This document shows positions 430-17,954 of a DNA stretch of 20,521 nucleotides, piece by piece. The notes beneath the pieces were generated by a model that had not been told where the DNA came from, did not search any database, and was given only the letters and a program-made list of their open reading frames with translations. The first letter of the stretch is position 1, and each line of letters opens with the position of its first letter. The translations under genes were made by a program, and so were the position numbers. Source of the DNA: a virus. The stretch spans positions 1 through 20,521 of IMG/VR virus record IMGVR_UViG_3300032116_001596; one strand, 5' to 3'.

Positions 430-588
430 ATGAAATTATTTTACGCAATTATTTGTAGGTTTTTACCTAAAAGATTAGTGGCTTTTGCTTTACTACTTCA
501 CGCAAAACAAATCACTAAAGGCAATATGGTGGTTATGCAAGAATTAACAGTTGTTGAATTATTTGATAAATTAGCAGGAGAAAGCTAA
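430..588 (+). CDS. Small phage protein with LPKRL motif, unknown function
   Basis: This 52-residue ORF starts at ATG 430 behind a purine-rich AAAAGGAAAATAG leader. It reads MKLFYAIICRFLPKRLVAFA and ends VVELFDKLAGES. The FLPKRL segment followed by a hydrophobic stretch matches the design of the gene at 198, and the conserved layout (LPK-L, helix, then a QELTVVE-like tail) resembles small proteins common between early genes of tailed phages. The stop at 586-588 is one base before the next ATG. No enzymatic role is evident. Confidence 0.5.
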   Translation: MKLFYAIICRFLPKRLVAFALLLHAKQITKGNMVVMQELTVVELFDKLAGES

Positions 589-589
589 A

Positions 590-967
590 ATGAAATCCCT
601 ATATCAAACAACACTAGAACAATTTACAGGAACCCAAGAACTCAAAGAGGGTGATTGTGTCGTTTGTCCCATGTACCCGAATGAGATATTTAAGGTTAAG
701 TTTGATAATAATGGCAGATGTGAGATTCAAACTCCTTCTATTTCTAGGCTCTTCAATAGGTTCGGGAGGTCTTTTGATATAGAGGATTTCCCTCTATACC
801 TAAAATGCTCCCCACCAAAAAAGAAAGTCGAGAAGGTTTTTGATGTTTATATTTTTGAAAACCACTTTAAGTATATAGGAAGCTCAAGTAATGCTATTTT
901 TATCTCAACGGGAAAAGATGAGGAATACAACATCAAAGCAAAACTAATCGTGGAGATAGAGGAATGA
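590..967 (+). CDS. Hypothetical phage protein, 125 aa
   Basis: The ORF starts one base after the previous stop and ends in an ATGA overlap with the next gene at 964. The protein is soluble-looking, with Cys residues near the N-terminus (GDCVVCPMYP, about 21-30), a basic central part with a PPKKK run, and a beta-rich C-terminus ending KLIVEIEE. No motif that I recognise is present. Its last codons, GTG GAG ATA GAG GAA TGA, double as the ribosome binding site for the next gene, a cassette repeated at other junctions in this block. The function is unknown. Confidence 0.6.
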   Translation: MKSLYQTTLEQFTGTQELKEGDCVVCPMYPNEIFKVKFDNNGRCEIQTPSISRLFNRFGRSFDIEDFPLYLKCSPPKKKVEKVFDVYIFENHFKYIGSSSNAIFISTGKDEEYNIKAKLIVEIEE

Positions 968-1134
968 AATTTTTAAAAATCATGTTTAGGGGAACAGTAA
1001 GGGGAATTGTAGCTTTGTCTGTAATTTTTTTAATCTTAACTGTAACATTACTGCCTCTACACTTCACATCTGTTTCCATTGCATACACTGTTGTACTGAC
1101 AATTTTAGGTATATACGTCTTAGGAGATAGTTAG
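964..1134 (+). CDS. Small two-helix membrane protein, 56 aa
   Basis: The ATG lies in an ATGA overlap with the preceding gene and the ORF closes with TAG at 1132-1134. A short basic N-terminus (MKFLKIMFRGTVRG) is followed by two hydrophobic segments, about residues 15-32 and 38-53, ending YVLGDS. This predicts two membrane spans with little soluble mass. Small membrane proteins of this kind in phages include holin-like and superinfection-exclusion proteins, but nothing here separates those options and there is no lysis gene beside it. Confidence 0.55.
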   Translation: MKFLKIMFRGTVRGIVALSVIFLILTVTLLPLHFTSVSIAYTVVLTILGIYVLGDS

Positions 1135-1207
1135 GAATTTAGACAGTGTAAAGACTACAGAACCAATTTAATTTTTTAACTGATAGTTTAAAATACCAAA
1201 TAACCAA

Positions 1208-1232
1208 CTAATTGCGGAGGTAGAGGAATGAA
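1208..1232 (+). repeat. Repeated stop/SD/start cassette (leader of the 1228 gene)
   Basis: This leader, GCGGAGGTAGAGGAATGAA with flanks, matches the gene junctions at 944-968 and 1408-1426, where the same bases encode the end of one gene (E-I/V-E-E-stop) and provide the ribosome binding site of the next. Here no upstream gene is open: in the matching frame the bases would read LIAEVEE-stop, but a TAG lies about 14 codons back. A similar orphan leader is at 2971-2995. Confidence 0.6.
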
Positions 1233-1425
1233 TACAAGAATTAACTTTGGAAATTACTATATAACTATTCAATTAGGTTTTGTGGAAGATGTGATAGGTT
1301 TAGCAGTGACAAGCTATTGGAGTAATAGTCATATCGCAAAATATATTACTTTCACGTCTTTGATAATAAATTTAAACTTTAACTTTGTTTTTGGATATGA
1401 ATATGAAAAAGAGGTAGAGGAATGA
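1228..1425 (+). CDS. Hypothetical protein, 65 aa
   Basis: A strong purine-rich SD (GGAGGTAGAGG) precedes the ATG. The protein is rich in aromatic and beta-forming residues (INFGNYYITIQLGF near the start, INLNFNFVFGYEYE near the end), suggesting a small beta-sheet fold. It ends KEVEE, and the codons for that tail form the SD for the next gene, which starts in an ATGA overlap at 1422. The function is unknown. A 93-bp AT-rich gap lies upstream, with no clear promoter. Confidence 0.55.
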   Translation: MNTRINFGNYYITIQLGFVEDVIGLAVTSYWSNSHIAKYITFTSLIINLNFNFVFGYEYEKEVEE

Positions 1426-8593: not shown

Positions 8594-9517
8594 ATGCCTT
8601 TTACAACTAACTTATCAGGTACAGCTCAAGTTGATGATTCAATCATCTTAGCGTACGATAAACAATTTATTGTTGCGTCTGCACAAGACCAAATTATGGA
8701 CCAATTTGTTACTTACAAAGCTAACATCAACGCTAAATCAATTGAGTTTGAAAAATATTCTCAATTATCACTAGCAACAACTCCGCTTGTTGAAACAGAC
8801 GATGTTGTTTCTGAAGCATTAGCTGATGCAAATATCATCTTAACTCCTGCTGAATACGGGAACGTAGTTACAAAAACTCAATTAGCTTCACTTCAAACTG
8901 GTGGAAAAATTGATTTAGCTTCTGCTAGATTGGTTGGTATTAACGCAGGTAGAACTCAAGATAAATTAGCTCTTTTATCTTTAGATGCTTCATCTAATGT
9001 ACAATTTGCAGGAACAGGAAACGGAGCAAATGGTGACTTAGCTGTTACTGATATTGTTGACACATCATTCCTTAACAAAATGTATAACAAACTTGCAAGA
9101 AACTCTGTTCAAATGATTAACGGGTTATACGTTGCAGTTCTACACGATGACGCTATTCATGATTTAAGAAACAGTGCTGGTTCTGGTTCATGGGTTGACA
9201 TCAATAAATACGCTCAACCAAATGAAGTTCTTATGAATGAAGTTGGTATGCTTTGCGGTTTCAGAATCATCAGAGATAACCATGCAACTATTTTTGCAGG
9301 TGCTTCAGGGGATTCAGAAGATGTTTATAACTCTTATTTCATGGGATTCAACGCTCTTGGAAAAGCTGTTTCTAAAGAGGTTGGAATGGTTGCAACTGGA
9401 CCTTTCGACAAGTTAAACAGATTTGTAAACCTTGGTTGGTATGGTGTTTTCAAATATGGAATCATTGACCAAGATGCTCTATATATCGGTCGTTCTTGTT
9501 CATCTTTATCAGCTTAA
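8594..9517 (+). CDS. Major capsid protein (N4-gp56-type HK97 fold)
   Basis: This 307-residue shell subunit has an excellent SD (AAGGAG, seven bases upstream) and is followed by an intrinsic terminator, as expected for the most abundant virion protein. Signature segments of N4-gp56-family coat proteins can be read: VSEALADANIILTPAEYGN (72-90), LVGINAGRTQDKLALL (113-128), a cargo-like LYVAVLHDDAIHDLRN (178-193), WVDINKYAQPNEVLMNEVGM (200-219) and CGFRIIRDN (221-229). The remainder is the beta-rich P-domain and A-domain fold. No cleaved N-terminal delta domain is visible; scaffolding is supplied by the separate upstream gene. Confidence 0.9.
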   Translation: MPFTTNLSGTAQVDDSIILAYDKQFIVASAQDQIMDQFVTYKANINAKSIEFEKYSQLSLATTPLVETDDVVSEALADANIILTPAEYGNVVTKTQLASLQTGGKIDLASARLVGINAGRTQDKLALLSLDASSNVQFAGTGNGANGDLAVTDIVDTSFLNKMYNKLARNSVQMINGLYVAVLHDDAIHDLRNSAGSGSWVDINKYAQPNEVLMNEVGMLCGFRIIRDNHATIFAGASGDSEDVYNSYFMGFNALGKAVSKEVGMVATGPFDKLNRFVNLGWYGVFKYGIIDQDALYIGRSCSSLSA

Positions 9518-13352: not shown

Positions 13353-13778
13353 TTGATTTCAGATATTAGAAGTTATTTTAAAGCCAAAATAAAAGAAGTT
13401 ATGCCAGACATAAAAGAGCATAATCACCCAACTTCTTTTGATAATATCCCAGACACAAGACTTGAGGATTGGTATTTCCTAGGAATCAAGTCAACTACAA
13501 CAGAGCAACAGCATACGACAATTATCGACACAGTTGAAGTTGAGATTAAGTTATTTATTGATGGAAATAATAATCCAATGCTTCGCTATGACCTCGGTTA
13601 TTGCAAAGCAGGAGAAATAAGGCTTAATTTAACAAAAAGATCAAATGCTTTAAGTGCAGTTAATCCAATTAAAAACATAATTTGTAACTCGATAACACCA
13701 GAAAATGTTAGTGAAGATGACAACACGTTTATTTTTACATTACAATTTCAAGTAGAGTTGCATCAATCAATAATATAA
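13353..13778 (+). CDS. Tail completion / tail terminator-like protein
   Basis: A 141-residue protein with a TTG start right after the previous stop; GGAG (13342-13345) lies seven bases upstream, which supports TTG. It is a small alpha/beta protein with an N-terminal helix (DIRSYFKAKIKEVMPDIKEH) and strands EVEIKLFIDG and FIFTLQFQVELHQ, the pattern of proteins that cap the tail tube at its head end. The location directly before the tube gene is the strongest support. The stop overlaps the SD (AAGGAG) of the tube gene. Confidence 0.55.
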   Translation: MISDIRSYFKAKIKEVMPDIKEHNHPTSFDNIPDTRLEDWYFLGIKSTTTEQQHTTIIDTVEVEIKLFIDGNNNPMLRYDLGYCKAGEIRLNLTKRSNALSAVNPIKNIICNSITPENVSEDDNTFIFTLQFQVELHQSII

Positions 13779-13787
13779 GGAGATTTT

Positions 13788-14720
13788 ATGGGTTGTGGAG
13801 TACAAGGAACAAACATTCGTGTTGAACCAATGCGAGTATTTTGGGGTAGAGAGCATTGCCGTAATTACATTTTTAATGGAAATGGCTCTAACTCAGGTGG
13901 GGATTATTTGAATTTAACAATCATTGACCCTGATTATAATCAAACTGTTGGTTATATTTGGTTTGATGACGGGGTAGCTTCAGATCCTGCTCCTGCTGGA
14001 AAAACATTATTAGGTTCAGTTTCAATTCTTGCAGGTGATACATCTGCTCAAATTGTTGCAAAGGTTTTATTAGCTTTCCTTTTTTCTGGAGTAGATGATT
14101 TTTATGCAAAAGCAGGTGAATCTGCTCAAGAATTTTGTTTATGCAATAAATTCATTGGCGAAATCGACAACACAGCAGAAGGAACTGGAACAGCAAATGT
14201 AACTAAGGTTGTTGAAGTCCAAGGAATCGGTGGGGAGCTTGGTGCTACTTCTGGTGGGGTTGAGTTATCTTTCGAAGCTCAAACAATCGAAATTAAATCA
14301 GACCAAACAGGCGAGATTGTTTTAGATGATATTTTTGCAGGGTCAACAGCTTCAGCTTCAATGAGCTTAATTGAGCTTACTCAAGGGATTTTAAAAACTG
14401 TTATTGCTGGTGTTTCTGGCGATGCATTAACTCCTTCTGGCGGTACTGAAGTTCTTGGACAAGGTCAATCAAAACTTTATAATTCAATGTATGATTATGC
14501 AGGAAAGTTAATTCTTCACCCTGTTAGAATTATTGATATTTCTGATAGAAGTGATGACTGGGTATTTTGGAAATCTGCACCACTTATTGAATCGGTTTCT
14601 TTTTCTGGAACTGAACAAAAAGCACTAGCAGTTAATTTCAAAGCTTATCTAGACAAATCACTAGACCAAAAAGTAAACTTATGGGTACAAGGTGATTGGT
14701 TACAAGATTTTAGTGCTTAA
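13788..14720 (+). CDS. Major tail tube protein
   Basis: This 310-residue protein has an optimal SD (AAGGAG, five bases ahead) and is followed by an intrinsic terminator, marking high expression. The order, neck genes then this gene then chaperones then tape measure, is the position of the tube subunit. The sequence is beta-rich, with a glycine and serine-laden stretch (GGELGATSGGVELSFEAQTI, about 148-167) and an end of tube type (ESVSFSGTEQKALAVNFKAY, about 270-289). The extra domain in the first 130 residues makes it longer than a minimal tube protein, so it may carry a surface domain. Confidence 0.75.
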   Translation: MGCGVQGTNIRVEPMRVFWGREHCRNYIFNGNGSNSGGDYLNLTIIDPDYNQTVGYIWFDDGVASDPAPAGKTLLGSVSILAGDTSAQIVAKVLLAFLFSGVDDFYAKAGESAQEFCLCNKFIGEIDNTAEGTGTANVTKVVEVQGIGGELGATSGGVELSFEAQTIEIKSDQTGEIVLDDIFAGSTASASMSLIELTQGILKTVIAGVSGDALTPSGGTEVLGQGQSKLYNSMYDYAGKLILHPVRIIDISDRSDDWVFWKSAPLIESVSFSGTEQKALAVNFKAYLDKSLDQKVNLWVQGDWLQDFSA

Positions 14721-14745
14721 TCCAATTAGGCAATAATGAATGGTT

Positions 14746-14780
14746 GGTGCAGAGTTTTTATCCTTCTCTGCACCTTTCTT
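14746..14780 (+). terminator. Rho-independent terminator after the tail tube gene
   Basis: A nine-base stem GGTGCAGAG / CTCTGCACC with an 11-base loop and a TTTCTT tail, 25 bases past the tube stop. The stem shares the GGTGCA core with the capsid terminator. Confidence 0.85.
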
Positions 14781-14791
14781 AAAAAGGTTTT

Positions 14792-15046
14792 ATGAAGTTA
14801 GAGTTTAGCAAAAAATCCTTAGAGGTTGTTTTTGACGGAAAAGCTTACAATGTGAGCTTTCCAACAATTAAAGAAGCCAATGAGTATGCAAAAAACTTTA
14901 GCAAAGCAGATTCAGCAGAAGCAAAAGATGAAGTTCTTTTTCTTTTTTTAGAGAAATTGGGCTTGCCAAAAGAGATCGTTGAGCAATTTTACGTTGAGCA
15001 GTTAGAGCAAGTTATTGATGTTCTTTTGCTTCAAAAAAAAATTTAG
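14792..15046 (+). CDS. Tail assembly chaperone, short form (gpG-like)
   Basis: This 84-residue protein lies between tube and tape measure, the place of the lambda G/GT chaperones that hold the tape measure during tail assembly. It opens with a small beta unit (KLEFSKKSLEVVFDGKAYNV) followed by helices (EANEYAKNF, EVLFLFLEKLGLPKEIVEQ). Its last codons are CAA AAA AAA ATT TAG, a run of nine A just before the stop. Slipping back one base opens the frame of the next segment, as in lambda. AAAGG lies a few bases before the ATG. Confidence 0.78.
   Translation: MKLEFSKKSLEVVFDGKAYNVSFPTIKEANEYAKNFSKADSAEAKDEVLFLFLEKLGLPKEIVEQFYVEQLEQVIDVLLLQKKI
15034..15046 (+). other. Likely -1 ribosomal frameshift site (A AAA AAA)
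   Basis: Zero-frame codons CAA AAA AAA ATT TAG give A AAA AAA at 15034-15040. After a -1 slip reading continues AAT TTA GCG ATT GAT GAG into the 15058 frame, which stays open to 15336. A six-pair inverted repeat TTGCCA/TGGCAA (15058-15063 and 15074-15079) lies 17 bases downstream and might act as a stimulator. Confidence 0.7.
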
Positions 15047-15057
15047 CGATTGATGAG

Positions 15058-15336
15058 TTGCCATTATTTGAAGTGGCAAGATTTTATTCTCTAAACCCCC
15101 ACGAGGTTGAAGGCATGGAAGCCGAAATGTTTTACAAGTCTTATGAGGCTATGAATATTTTAAAGGCTAGAGAAACATTAACAAGTGTTGATGTGGCTTC
15201 TTATACCAAGATAAGCGATAAAGACAGAGCTAATTATCACAGAGAGCTTCACAAACAAGCAAATCCCTTACATTTTGAAAATTGGGTTTCATCAAAAGAC
15301 GCTGTTGAAATATTAAAGCAGAGAGGTAGAAGGTAA
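15058..15336 (+). CDS. Tail assembly chaperone extension (gpT-like), reached by frameshift
   Basis: This frame is open from the slippery site, so the probable product is the gpG-like protein joined to NLAIDELPLFEVARFYSLNP and onward, about 181 residues in all. The TTG at 15058 has no good SD and is an unlikely independent start. The extension is helical and charged (YEAMNILKARETLTSVDV, DRANYHRELHKQ) and ends EILKQRGRR, like gpT-type tails that contact the tape measure. It ends in a TAATG overlap with the tape measure gene at 15336, as in other siphoviruses. Confidence 0.7.
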   Translation: MPLFEVARFYSLNPHEVEGMEAEMFYKSYEAMNILKARETLTSVDVASYTKISDKDRANYHRELHKQANPLHFENWVSSKDAVEILKQRGRR

Positions 15337-17954
15337 TGGCTGATGAAATCAAAATTCAGCTCAACTTAGATAAAGGTGCTTTATCTTCTGAGATAAAAAA
15401 AGCTGAAAAAGAAATAGAGAAATTAACAAACATCTCAAAAAAGTTTATTGAAAACTCTGGTCTTGATAAAATTGGTGATAGCTTCACATACTTAACAGCC
15501 AGAATAAATGAGAGTAGAAAATCAATAGAGCGTTTTAACAATAGTCTAATTACAACAGCTCAAATTTACAAAGAAGTCATAAGAAAAAGCGTTGATTTTA
15601 AAGGTGCTTCAGACAGTATTGCAAAATCAGTAAGCGAAATTAATAAAGAAACTGCCAAAATAAGACGTTCAAATGTTCAAGAAGTTGCAAGTGATTTAAA
15701 AAAATTATCAACTGTTGTAAAAACAGAAAAACCAGAAGTTGGGATTTCAAATATCGCTCAAAGCTCAGAAGTTGCTTCTGGTGCTTTAGGAAAATTTAGG
15801 GGTGCATTTAGTTCTCTTATCCCTCAAATGACAATAGCGAACCTAACAAGCAGAGCTGTTGAATCTGCTATCAGATTAATTACAAATGTTTTAACAACTG
15901 GTTTAAACTCTGCCAGAGATTATTCAAGGGCTTTTGCAGAAGTAAATTCTATCCTCGCAGATAATGAGCAAATAACAGCGACGCAAACAGATGTCTTTAA
16001 AGATTTTGCATCACAATATGCATCAACCTCGGCTCAACAAGCAAAGGCTTATTACGAGATTGTTTCAGCAGGTATTCAGGGCACAACAAATAGGCTTGAT
16101 TTATTAAAGACTGCCAATGATGCTTCTATTGCAGGTTTATCTGATTTAAAAGATACAACAAAAGTCTTAGCTTCTGTTTTAAACTCATATTCTCAACAAG
16201 GTTTAACAGCTCAAGTTGCTTCAGATGCTTTATTTGTGGCTGTGCGAGAAGGTATTGTTACATTTCAAGAGTTTTCAGATTTTCTAGGTAACGTAGCTCC
16301 AATTGCATCAAGTGCAGGTGTTTCGTTTACTGATTTAGCAGGAACAATCGCCTTTGTTACCAAGCAAGGTGTTGCTTCTGATATTGCAATTAGAGGCATT
16401 AGACAATTATTAGTAAATGTCATCAAACCAACAAAAGAAGCTAGTGACACAGCAAAGGCTCTTGGTCTTGAATTTAATCAAACAGCACTTCAAGCAAAAG
16501 GGCTTGTTGGATTTCTTCAAGATGTTCAAAATAAAACAAAAGGCAACTCATCTGCTCTTAATGCTTTAGTTGGTGATGTAAATGCTTTAGTCCCTCTTTT
16601 GTCTATTGTAAAAGGGGACACAAAAGACTTTGCCCGTATTCTTCAATTGACAGAAAACAGTGCAGGGGCAACAGCGAGAGCTTTTAACACCATTTCTCAA
16701 TCACTAGACTTTAAAATAAGCCAGTTTACTGCTGAATTTAAATTACTCGGGCAAGAATTTACTGAGAGTATTTTGCCAGCATTAATGGACACCATTGAAG
16801 CAGGTAGGGGATTTTTAAGATTTATAAAAGATGCCAAAGAAGCCAAAGGAGCTTTCGATCCTCAAACAGCATCATTGAGACAACTGGACTCTCAAATATC
16901 TAAGCTTGTTGATTCGCAACAAATTGTAATTTCACAAATTCAGCAGTTAGAAAAATTAAATAGAAGAAATGACTTAAGTGTTTCTATTAAATCAATAGAC
17001 ACATTAAGAAAAGAAAATCAGAAATATGAAGATCAAATAAGCTCTCTTTTAAATAAAAGAAAAGAAATATTAAGCTCGCAAGAAAAAGAGCGTGAAAGCA
17101 CAAGAAAAGTTGCTAGTGCTTATGTTGATTCAAATAATCAAATAATTACCTCTGAACAGAAAAAAATTGATTATCTTTCTCAGATTGGCATAATGTCGAA
17201 CGAGCTTAATTTACAAAATTTAAATAAAAGACGAGAAGCAATAGATGAAGCTAATAAACAGGGGTTGTTGTCTCAAGCATCTTATAATGCTCTAATCTTG
17301 GAAAACGATAGAATGTTTCAAGAGCAGAGAGATGCTTTAAGAGAAAAAGAACTTGGAGATGTAACTGTTTTTGCAACTGGAATCGCAGAAGCCTTTGAGA
17401 TTGCATCAAGAAGATCAAGAGCAACCATAGTTCAACTTGCAACAACAATTCAAACTGTTTTTGTTTCTGGATTAAGTCGCTCACTTAATAATGTTGGTGT
17501 AGCCTTAGCTAAAAATGAAAATGCCTTTAAGGCATTTGAGGCTGGGATCTTAGCAACATTTGGAGATATTGCTAGTGCAATTGGCGATTTTTATATTAAA
17601 CAAGGTGTTGCTGAAACTATCGCAACAAAAGGTGCATCTGGTTGGGCTTTAATCTCAGCAGGTGCAGGGATAAAAATTCTCGGAGGATATTTAAGTGCAA
17701 AAGCAGGGGCAACCTCTGCAAATACTCCTAGTTCAAGCGGTGGAACTGGTTCTTATGGTGGCTCTGAGCTAGGTGGCTCAAGAGCTTCGATAACACCAGA
17801 TCAAATAGAAGAAAGAAAACCAAGCACAAATGTTTCACTTGTTGTACAGGGCGATATTTTAGATTCACAAGAAACAGGAACAAGATTAGCAAAAATTTTA
17901 TCTGATTCATTTGGAAAAGAAGGGATTGTTTTAACAGACGCTAGGTTTGCTTAA
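15336..17954 (+). CDS. Tail tape measure protein (TP901-type core)
   Basis: This is the longest gene complete in the window: 872 residues setting tail length and passing DNA at infection. The N-terminal 130 residues are a coiled coil (IKKAEKEIEKLTNISKKFIE). The conserved TP901-family core runs from about 195 to 455, with DFASQYASTSAQQAKAYYEI (223-242), ASVLNSYSQQGLTAQVASDA (279-298), GTIAFVTKQGVASDIAIRGI (336-355) and KGNSSALNALVGDVNALVPL (402-421). More coiled coil follows, then a hydrophobic segment near the C-terminus (ALISAGAGIKILGGYLSAKAG, in which a membrane-inserting stretch is plausible) and a Gly/Ser tail. The length would predict a tail of roughly 130 nm by the usual 1.5 angstrom per residue rule; that is inference. 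Confidence 0.92.
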   Translation: MADEIKIQLNLDKGALSSEIKKAEKEIEKLTNISKKFIENSGLDKIGDSFTYLTARINESRKSIERFNNSLITTAQIYKEVIRKSVDFKGASDSIAKSVSEINKETAKIRRSNVQEVASDLKKLSTVVKTEKPEVGISNIAQSSEVASGALGKFRGAFSSLIPQMTIANLTSRAVESAIRLITNVLTTGLNSARDYSRAFAEVNSILADNEQITATQTDVFKDFASQYASTSAQQAKAYYEIVSAGIQGTTNRLDLLKTANDASIAGLSDLKDTTKVLASVLNSYSQQGLTAQVASDALFVAVREGIVTFQEFSDFLGNVAPIASSAGVSFTDLAGTIAFVTKQGVASDIAIRGIRQLLVNVIKPTKEASDTAKALGLEFNQTALQAKGLVGFLQDVQNKTKGNSSALNALVGDVNALVPLLSIVKGDTKDFARILQLTENSAGATARAFNTISQSLDFKISQFTAEFKLLGQEFTESILPALMDTIEAGRGFLRFIKDAKEAKGAFDPQTASLRQLDSQISKLVDSQQIVISQIQQLEKLNRRNDLSVSIKSIDTLRKENQKYEDQISSLLNKRKEILSSQEKERESTRKVASAYVDSNNQIITSEQKKIDYLSQIGIMSNELNLQNLNKRREAIDEANKQGLLSQASYNALILENDRMFQEQRDALREKELGDVTVFATGIAEAFEIASRRSRATIVQLATTIQTVFVSGLSRSLNNVGVALAKNENAFKAFEAGILATFGDIASAIGDFYIKQGVAETIATKGASGWALISAGAGIKILGGYLSAKAGATSANTPSSSGGTGSYGGSELGGSRASITPDQIEERKPSTNVSLVVQGDILDSQETGTRLAKILSDSFGKEGIVLTDARFA

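Follow-up and report, generated by a model that had tools for sequence, protein, structure and literature searches.

A predicted −1 frameshift on a run of nine A's ahead of the tape measure gene of an uncultured long-tailed phage

Two overlapping open reading frames separate the tail-protein candidate from the tape measure gene of an uncultured phage. Are they translated separately, or are they joined by a −1 frameshift on a run of nine A's (A9)? We analyzed the 20,521 bases of a virus record in IMG/VR, and the window refers to this whole record. Its source is an uncultured, low-GC, long-tailed phage, and its terminase-like, capsid, tail-protein candidate and tape measure genes lie in head-to-tail order (Table 1). 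Elsewhere in the window, the product of 1893-2921, which carries a GGSPCQGFS motif, presumably resembles a C5 cytosine DNA methyltransferase. The first-pass annotation of this DNA had placed the nine A's by the zero-frame stop of the first frame (G) and had described the −1 frame (T) as open and ending in an overlap with the tape measure gene, and both observations were confirmed. The 3′ end of G reads CTT CAA AAA AAA ATT TAG, with the stop (15044-15046) right behind ATT, which contains the final A of the run. The T frame has 105 codons, 95 of them past the G stop, and the final A of its TAA is the first base of the tape measure ATG at 15336.

Table 1. Features of the tail region of the window (positions count from the first base of the window)
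Feature	Position	Strand	Evidence or remark
Major tail (tube) protein candidate, 310 aa, Ig-like part	13788..14720	+	PHROG 2175 (Ig domain), E 8.4e-12; PHROG 885 (major tail protein), E 1.1e-4
G, putative tail assembly chaperone, zero-frame product, 84 aa	14792..15046	+	ORF; gene-like codon usage, +0.34 per codon
T, −1 open frame	15019..15336	+	Adds 98 residues (N-L-A-I-D...) to G's 83 (through Q-K-K)
Slippery run, nine A	15033..15041	+	Sole A/T run of at least 8 in the window
A_AAA_AAA, sole in-frame X_XXY_YYZ heptamer of the G/T overlap	15034..15040	+	
Predicted imperfect stem-loop directly 3′ of A9	15042..15095	+	Apical 8-bp stem, 15058-15065/15072-15079
TTG, first possible T-frame start	15058..15060	+	No Shine-Dalgarno; within hairpin 5′ arm
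Tape measure protein, 872 aa	15336..17954	+	PHROG 23013, E 9.5e-33; Pfam PF10145, E 1.1e-25

The T frame carries a coding signal. Its codon log-likelihood was +25.8 over 96 codons (+0.27 per codon), and those of the other frames were −21.3 and −1.6; the reference for such scores was stretches of the same size, in which true genes had a mean of +0.41 and a minimum of +0.10 (n = 51) and wrong frames a maximum of +0.09 (n = 102). Open runs of at least 97 codons were absent among the 1,177 wrong-frame runs of the window, the longest of which had 81 codons. A long coding −1 frame joined to A9 at the boundary of the tape measure gene is thus not a product of chance.

We also evaluated where translation of T might begin. 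No start supported by a Shine-Dalgarno (SD) sequence was found in the T frame: the anti-SD energy of the TTG at 15058 was −0.2, compared to −6.4 for the window's other TTG start, at 13353, and 24 of the 27 other starts scored were at −2.4 or better, with the remaining three at 0 (1893, 7434 and 12394). Because the TTG at 15058 lacks an SD sequence, a separate T would need a restart there after the G stop at 15046, and no fusion would be made. The short distance (the TTG lies 12 nt past the stop), the use of TTG by this phage at 13353 and the three other starts that score as lacking an SD sequence are all compatible with a restart, but T's own TTG lies within one arm of the hairpin, and upstream of it the frame stays open back through A9. 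We therefore regard a separately made T as very unlikely.

To place this junction among others, we scanned 50 related loci, namely the neighborhoods of relatives of the tape measure and of the capsid, for a −1 overlap with an in-frame heptamer whose T frame ends within 120 nt of a long tape-measure-like frame. This layout was found in 24 of the 50, a count that includes near-duplicates (L038/L039, L041/L042, L007-L009, L026/L027 and L045/L048/L054) as well as L020, which is perhaps no true G/T pair; it was not found in the other 26, some of which are fragments without the region. Loci L063-L068 and L023, mentioned below, are outside this count or negative in it. The heptamer was GGGAAAC in L028 (Dinoroseobacter phage R26L), L031 and L041-L044, AAAAAAC in L034 (cyanophage KBS-S-2A), L038, L039 and L046, GGGAAAG in L045, L048 and L054, and of a T6 type in L026, L027 and L058, and further positive loci had homopolymers. 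In two loci (L051:2681-3276 and L052:2679-3271), the frames of a G/T-like pair overlap by 130 nt in −1, and this overlap holds neither an in-frame heptamer nor a run. Of the 24 positive loci, 16 have a possible T-frame start (ATG, GTG or TTG) upstream of the G stop or no more than 45 nt past it, as a separately translated T would have it, but the other 8 (L013, L021, L038, L039, L045, L048, L050 and L054, near-duplicates included) have no such start, which argues against that route.

Long runs recur at these junctions. The junction carries nine T's (T9) in L007-L009, L013 and L063/L064 and A9 in L021/L023, L050 and L056, all at 30 to 39% GC, and among named phages A9 is found in Caldibacillus phage CBP1 and Ruminococcus phiRgIBDN1 (42 to 43% GC) and A8 in Lactococcus bIL285, with AAA AAA AAA/AAG plus a stop at the same place in all three. 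Since 24 of the 50 loci share this layout, slippery heptamer included, and the three named phages have A8-A9 runs, a −1 frameshift at the G/T junction of the window is very likely. A misread run, in which G and T would truly form one gene containing ten A's, or in which the length of the run varies between phages, is suggested by the single record, the error-prone nature of homopolymers and the lack of a second copy in the searched collections, but other independent records and the named phages have G and T split at this same position, and an error of assembly or sequencing seems to us extremely unlikely. The lambda G/GT design that the first-pass annotation had proposed is supported: the gene order fits, the −1 frame is coding, no second start has SD support, and the layout recurs in related loci.

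The run itself is less telling than its position. A/T runs of at least 8 bases number one in the 20,521 bases, and 8.8 were expected from an order-2 Markov model; shuffling of synonymous codons within ORFs gave an expectation of 3.85, with one or fewer in 4.1% of 2,000 shuffles. A homopolymer of at least nine A's or T's, rare elsewhere, is thus present, but the count is only mildly below that of the shuffles. Given the peptide Q-K-K-I and the codon usage of the phage, A9 arose at the G/T junction in 910 of the 2,000 synonymous shuffles (45%), so that the run alone is not strong evidence of selection, and as an argument by itself it was weakened by this result. The window contains A7 ten further times, and its ORFs hold 60 in-frame heptamers, with A_AAA_AAA in six places besides the junction. 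In E. coli, A_AAA_AAA is reported to be much less shifty than A_AAA_AAG (PMC5009743).

We infer the occurrence, route and rate of the shift, and the chaperone function of its products, from the sequence and its comparisons. G and T probably form a pair of tail assembly chaperones like lambda G/GT, with a shift most likely made by the ribosome at A_AAA_AAA and perhaps with a contribution from RNA polymerase. Most translation would yield G. A minority of ribosomes would slip back one base on A9, reading CAA AAA AAA and then AAT TTA GCG, and would produce a 181-aa fusion in which G up to ...QKK continues as NLAIDELP... (junction peptide ...LLLQKKNLAIDELP...). The canonical form of the heptamer, the close stop and the predicted downstream structure speak for the ribosomal route; the stop, and perhaps the stem-loop too, may aid the slip at A_AAA_AAA. 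By analogy with lambda, the tape measure protein would be bound by many copies of G and few of GT, and the tail-tube protein would be recruited by T.

The first-pass annotation had also suggested that a possible downstream hairpin with the arms TTGCCA/TGGCAA may stimulate slippage, a claim that is supported in part. The arms belong to a perfect 8-bp stem, and the 60 nt after A9 fold at −15.5 kcal/mol (shuffle mean = −7.2, z = −3.46, P = 0.003). However, over 89 nt the z value was −1.42, with 13 of 200 shuffles equally stable, and 38 of 1,740 windows of 60 nt were at least as stable as the one after A9. The 8-bp stem, moreover, starts 17 nt after the heptamer, and a weak lower stem alone lies at the usual spacing of 5 to 9 nt (PMC5009743). 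Nine other junctions were folded likewise: structure was strong in bIL285 (z = −4.6) and CBP1 (z = −5.8) and moderate in L064 (z = −2.9), and no clear structure was found in the remaining six (z = −1.6 to +0.5). The hairpin is thus real but of moderate strength, and an aid of it to slippage is plausible.

That the long run may allow slippage in several ways, transcription included, is a reasonable part of the first-pass annotation. RNA polymerase adding one A to A9 may contribute alongside the ribosomal shift, or it might do all of the work: a minority of mRNAs with ten (or seven) A's would then be translated normally into the GT fusion, with no ribosomal shift. Slippage on nine A's or T's is reported to be efficient in vivo (PMC5009743), and in many bacterial genomes selection against slippage becomes visible at a run length of nine, although this length varies between them (PMC1088944). 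The exactly-nine runs recur at the junction in differing codon phases (phase 2 in the window, phase 1 in L021/L023/L066/L068 and phase 3 in L007/L008/L013/L063/L064/L050/L056), the extra A's add no second in-frame heptamer in the window or in L021, and the absence of any other run of at least 8 and the poor shiftiness of the heptamer point in the same direction. On the other hand, reporters of E. coli RNA polymerase slippage were nearly dark, with a maximum of 5 to 10% on T7/T8 and no detectable signal below eight A's (PMC6260861); codon usage predicts A9 in nearly half of the shuffles; the heptamer is canonical in form; and structure is predicted downstream and not upstream of the run (upstream z = −1.12). 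On balance, a purely transcriptional origin of the fusion appears unlikely. A ten-A RNA encodes the same joined peptide as the ribosomal −1 shift, and a seven-A RNA gives one K fewer, so mass spectrometry would prove the fusion and not its route; sequencing of cDNA would separate the routes.

A broader proposal follows the nine-base runs across phages: in mostly low-GC phages, runs of exactly nine A's or T's at the G/T junction would make the fusion wholly or partly by RNA polymerase slippage, with the G:GT ratio set at transcription instead of on the ribosome. If true, tail assembly would have a second way to fix the same protein ratio. A nine-base run was present at 12 of 23 junctions, a biased rate, as the junctions were picked partly for long runs, and L045/L048/L054 and L046 have low GC and do not follow the pattern. 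In phase 3, nine bases plus one form two overlapping heptamers, and in phases 1 and 2 (the window) they form one; ribosomal reading explains the two overlapping heptamers of the phase-3 runs. Three sequences of the T9 group (L008/L013/L064) were aligned over 255 columns, and their longest invariant block was AATTTTTTTTT, with 11 columns, the next having 5; this conserved block may stem partly from the conserved peptide N-F-F. We hold the proposal to be improbable. Outside its G/T junction, L013 has a second nine-base run, an A9 in the region 535-1289 (minus strand), at which an early gene ends and which supplies the start codon of the gene that follows (AAAAAAAAATG); we take the product of this following gene to resemble a T7 endonuclease I type protein.

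We then looked for kin of G and T beyond their layout. Profile searches gave no family match better than an E value of 0.04 for either protein, and pairwise alignment with 19 other G/T pairs gave nothing significant (best z = 1.7). A single-sequence structure model of G (pLDDT 77) showed a weak resemblance to tail chaperones: 6 of the 50 BFVD matches listed bore the name tail assembly chaperone, with a best E value of 0.063 and none at 0.001, and a PDB fold search gave no match at an E value of 0.001 or below, with the uncharacterised protein 5ir0 as the best (Z = 4.5) and the HK97 chaperone 2ob9 at rank 9 (Z = 2.4). The model of T had a pLDDT of 49. In the viral contigs searched, no close relatives were found of the G-T fusion, the full-length tape measure or the tail protein; the DNA search in phages found no relative, and none was found there for the tail protein or the portal; the G-T protein search in phages gave one weak, chance-like match, and that in genomes gave no relative, in collections that may omit records very near the window. 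Two of 26 capsid-relative records matched the tape measure of the window, several others being fragments that end before the tail. L007/L008, L013 and L021 have a related capsid (window 8594-9517) yet tape-measure-like and G/T genes that differ from those of the window (within 13788-17954), which suggests that tail modules are exchanged. For this orphan gene pair, the G/T reading settles what T is, as T would otherwise be missed or called a separate gene.

The site is a fresh example of the already known G/GT frameshift and is otherwise ordinary. As in lambda, a short gene lies between the tail-tube and tape measure genes, a −1 shift (here predicted) occurs near the end of G, and T is without a good start of its own. 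In lambda the slippery site is G_GGA_AAG and gpG has 140 aa, whereas here the site is A9 with A_AAA_AAA, G is much shorter at 84 aa, and no family match is evident by sequence. Lambda gpG and gpGT, in a ratio of about 30:1, work together with the tape measure and tail protein; among long-tailed phages, −1 shifting in G/GT genes is widely conserved even where sequence similarity is low, and a stimulator seems to be dispensable in some cases (PMC5009743). The present locus adds a sequence-unrelated case to this widely conserved device. In an HK97-like chaperone cluster, two genes were tested and shifted at 6% and 7% (PMC3711429). A close likeness in layout is seen in phages of Gram-positive hosts (bIL285, CBP1 and phiRgIBDN1), in which A8-A9 lies just 5′ of the G stop, T is in the −1 frame and the tape measure gene comes next; bIL285 and CBP1 also have the strong downstream stem-loops described above. 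Unlike those of the window, their runs start at codon position 1 and not 2, and neither G nor T aligns significantly with theirs. Among open-access papers, judged mostly by title and the start of the abstract, we found none on a tail chaperone made by transcriptional slippage; slippage has been proposed for the tape measure gene of an Acinetobacter prophage (PMC6095929). The window resembles the 9A/9T cases of transcriptional slippage (Thermus dnaX, IS elements and Shigella mxiE) in its nine A's and in the frame change just after them, but in those cases experiments or comparisons showed slippage or led to its inference (PMC1088944, PMC5009743), whereas here it is a candidate route.
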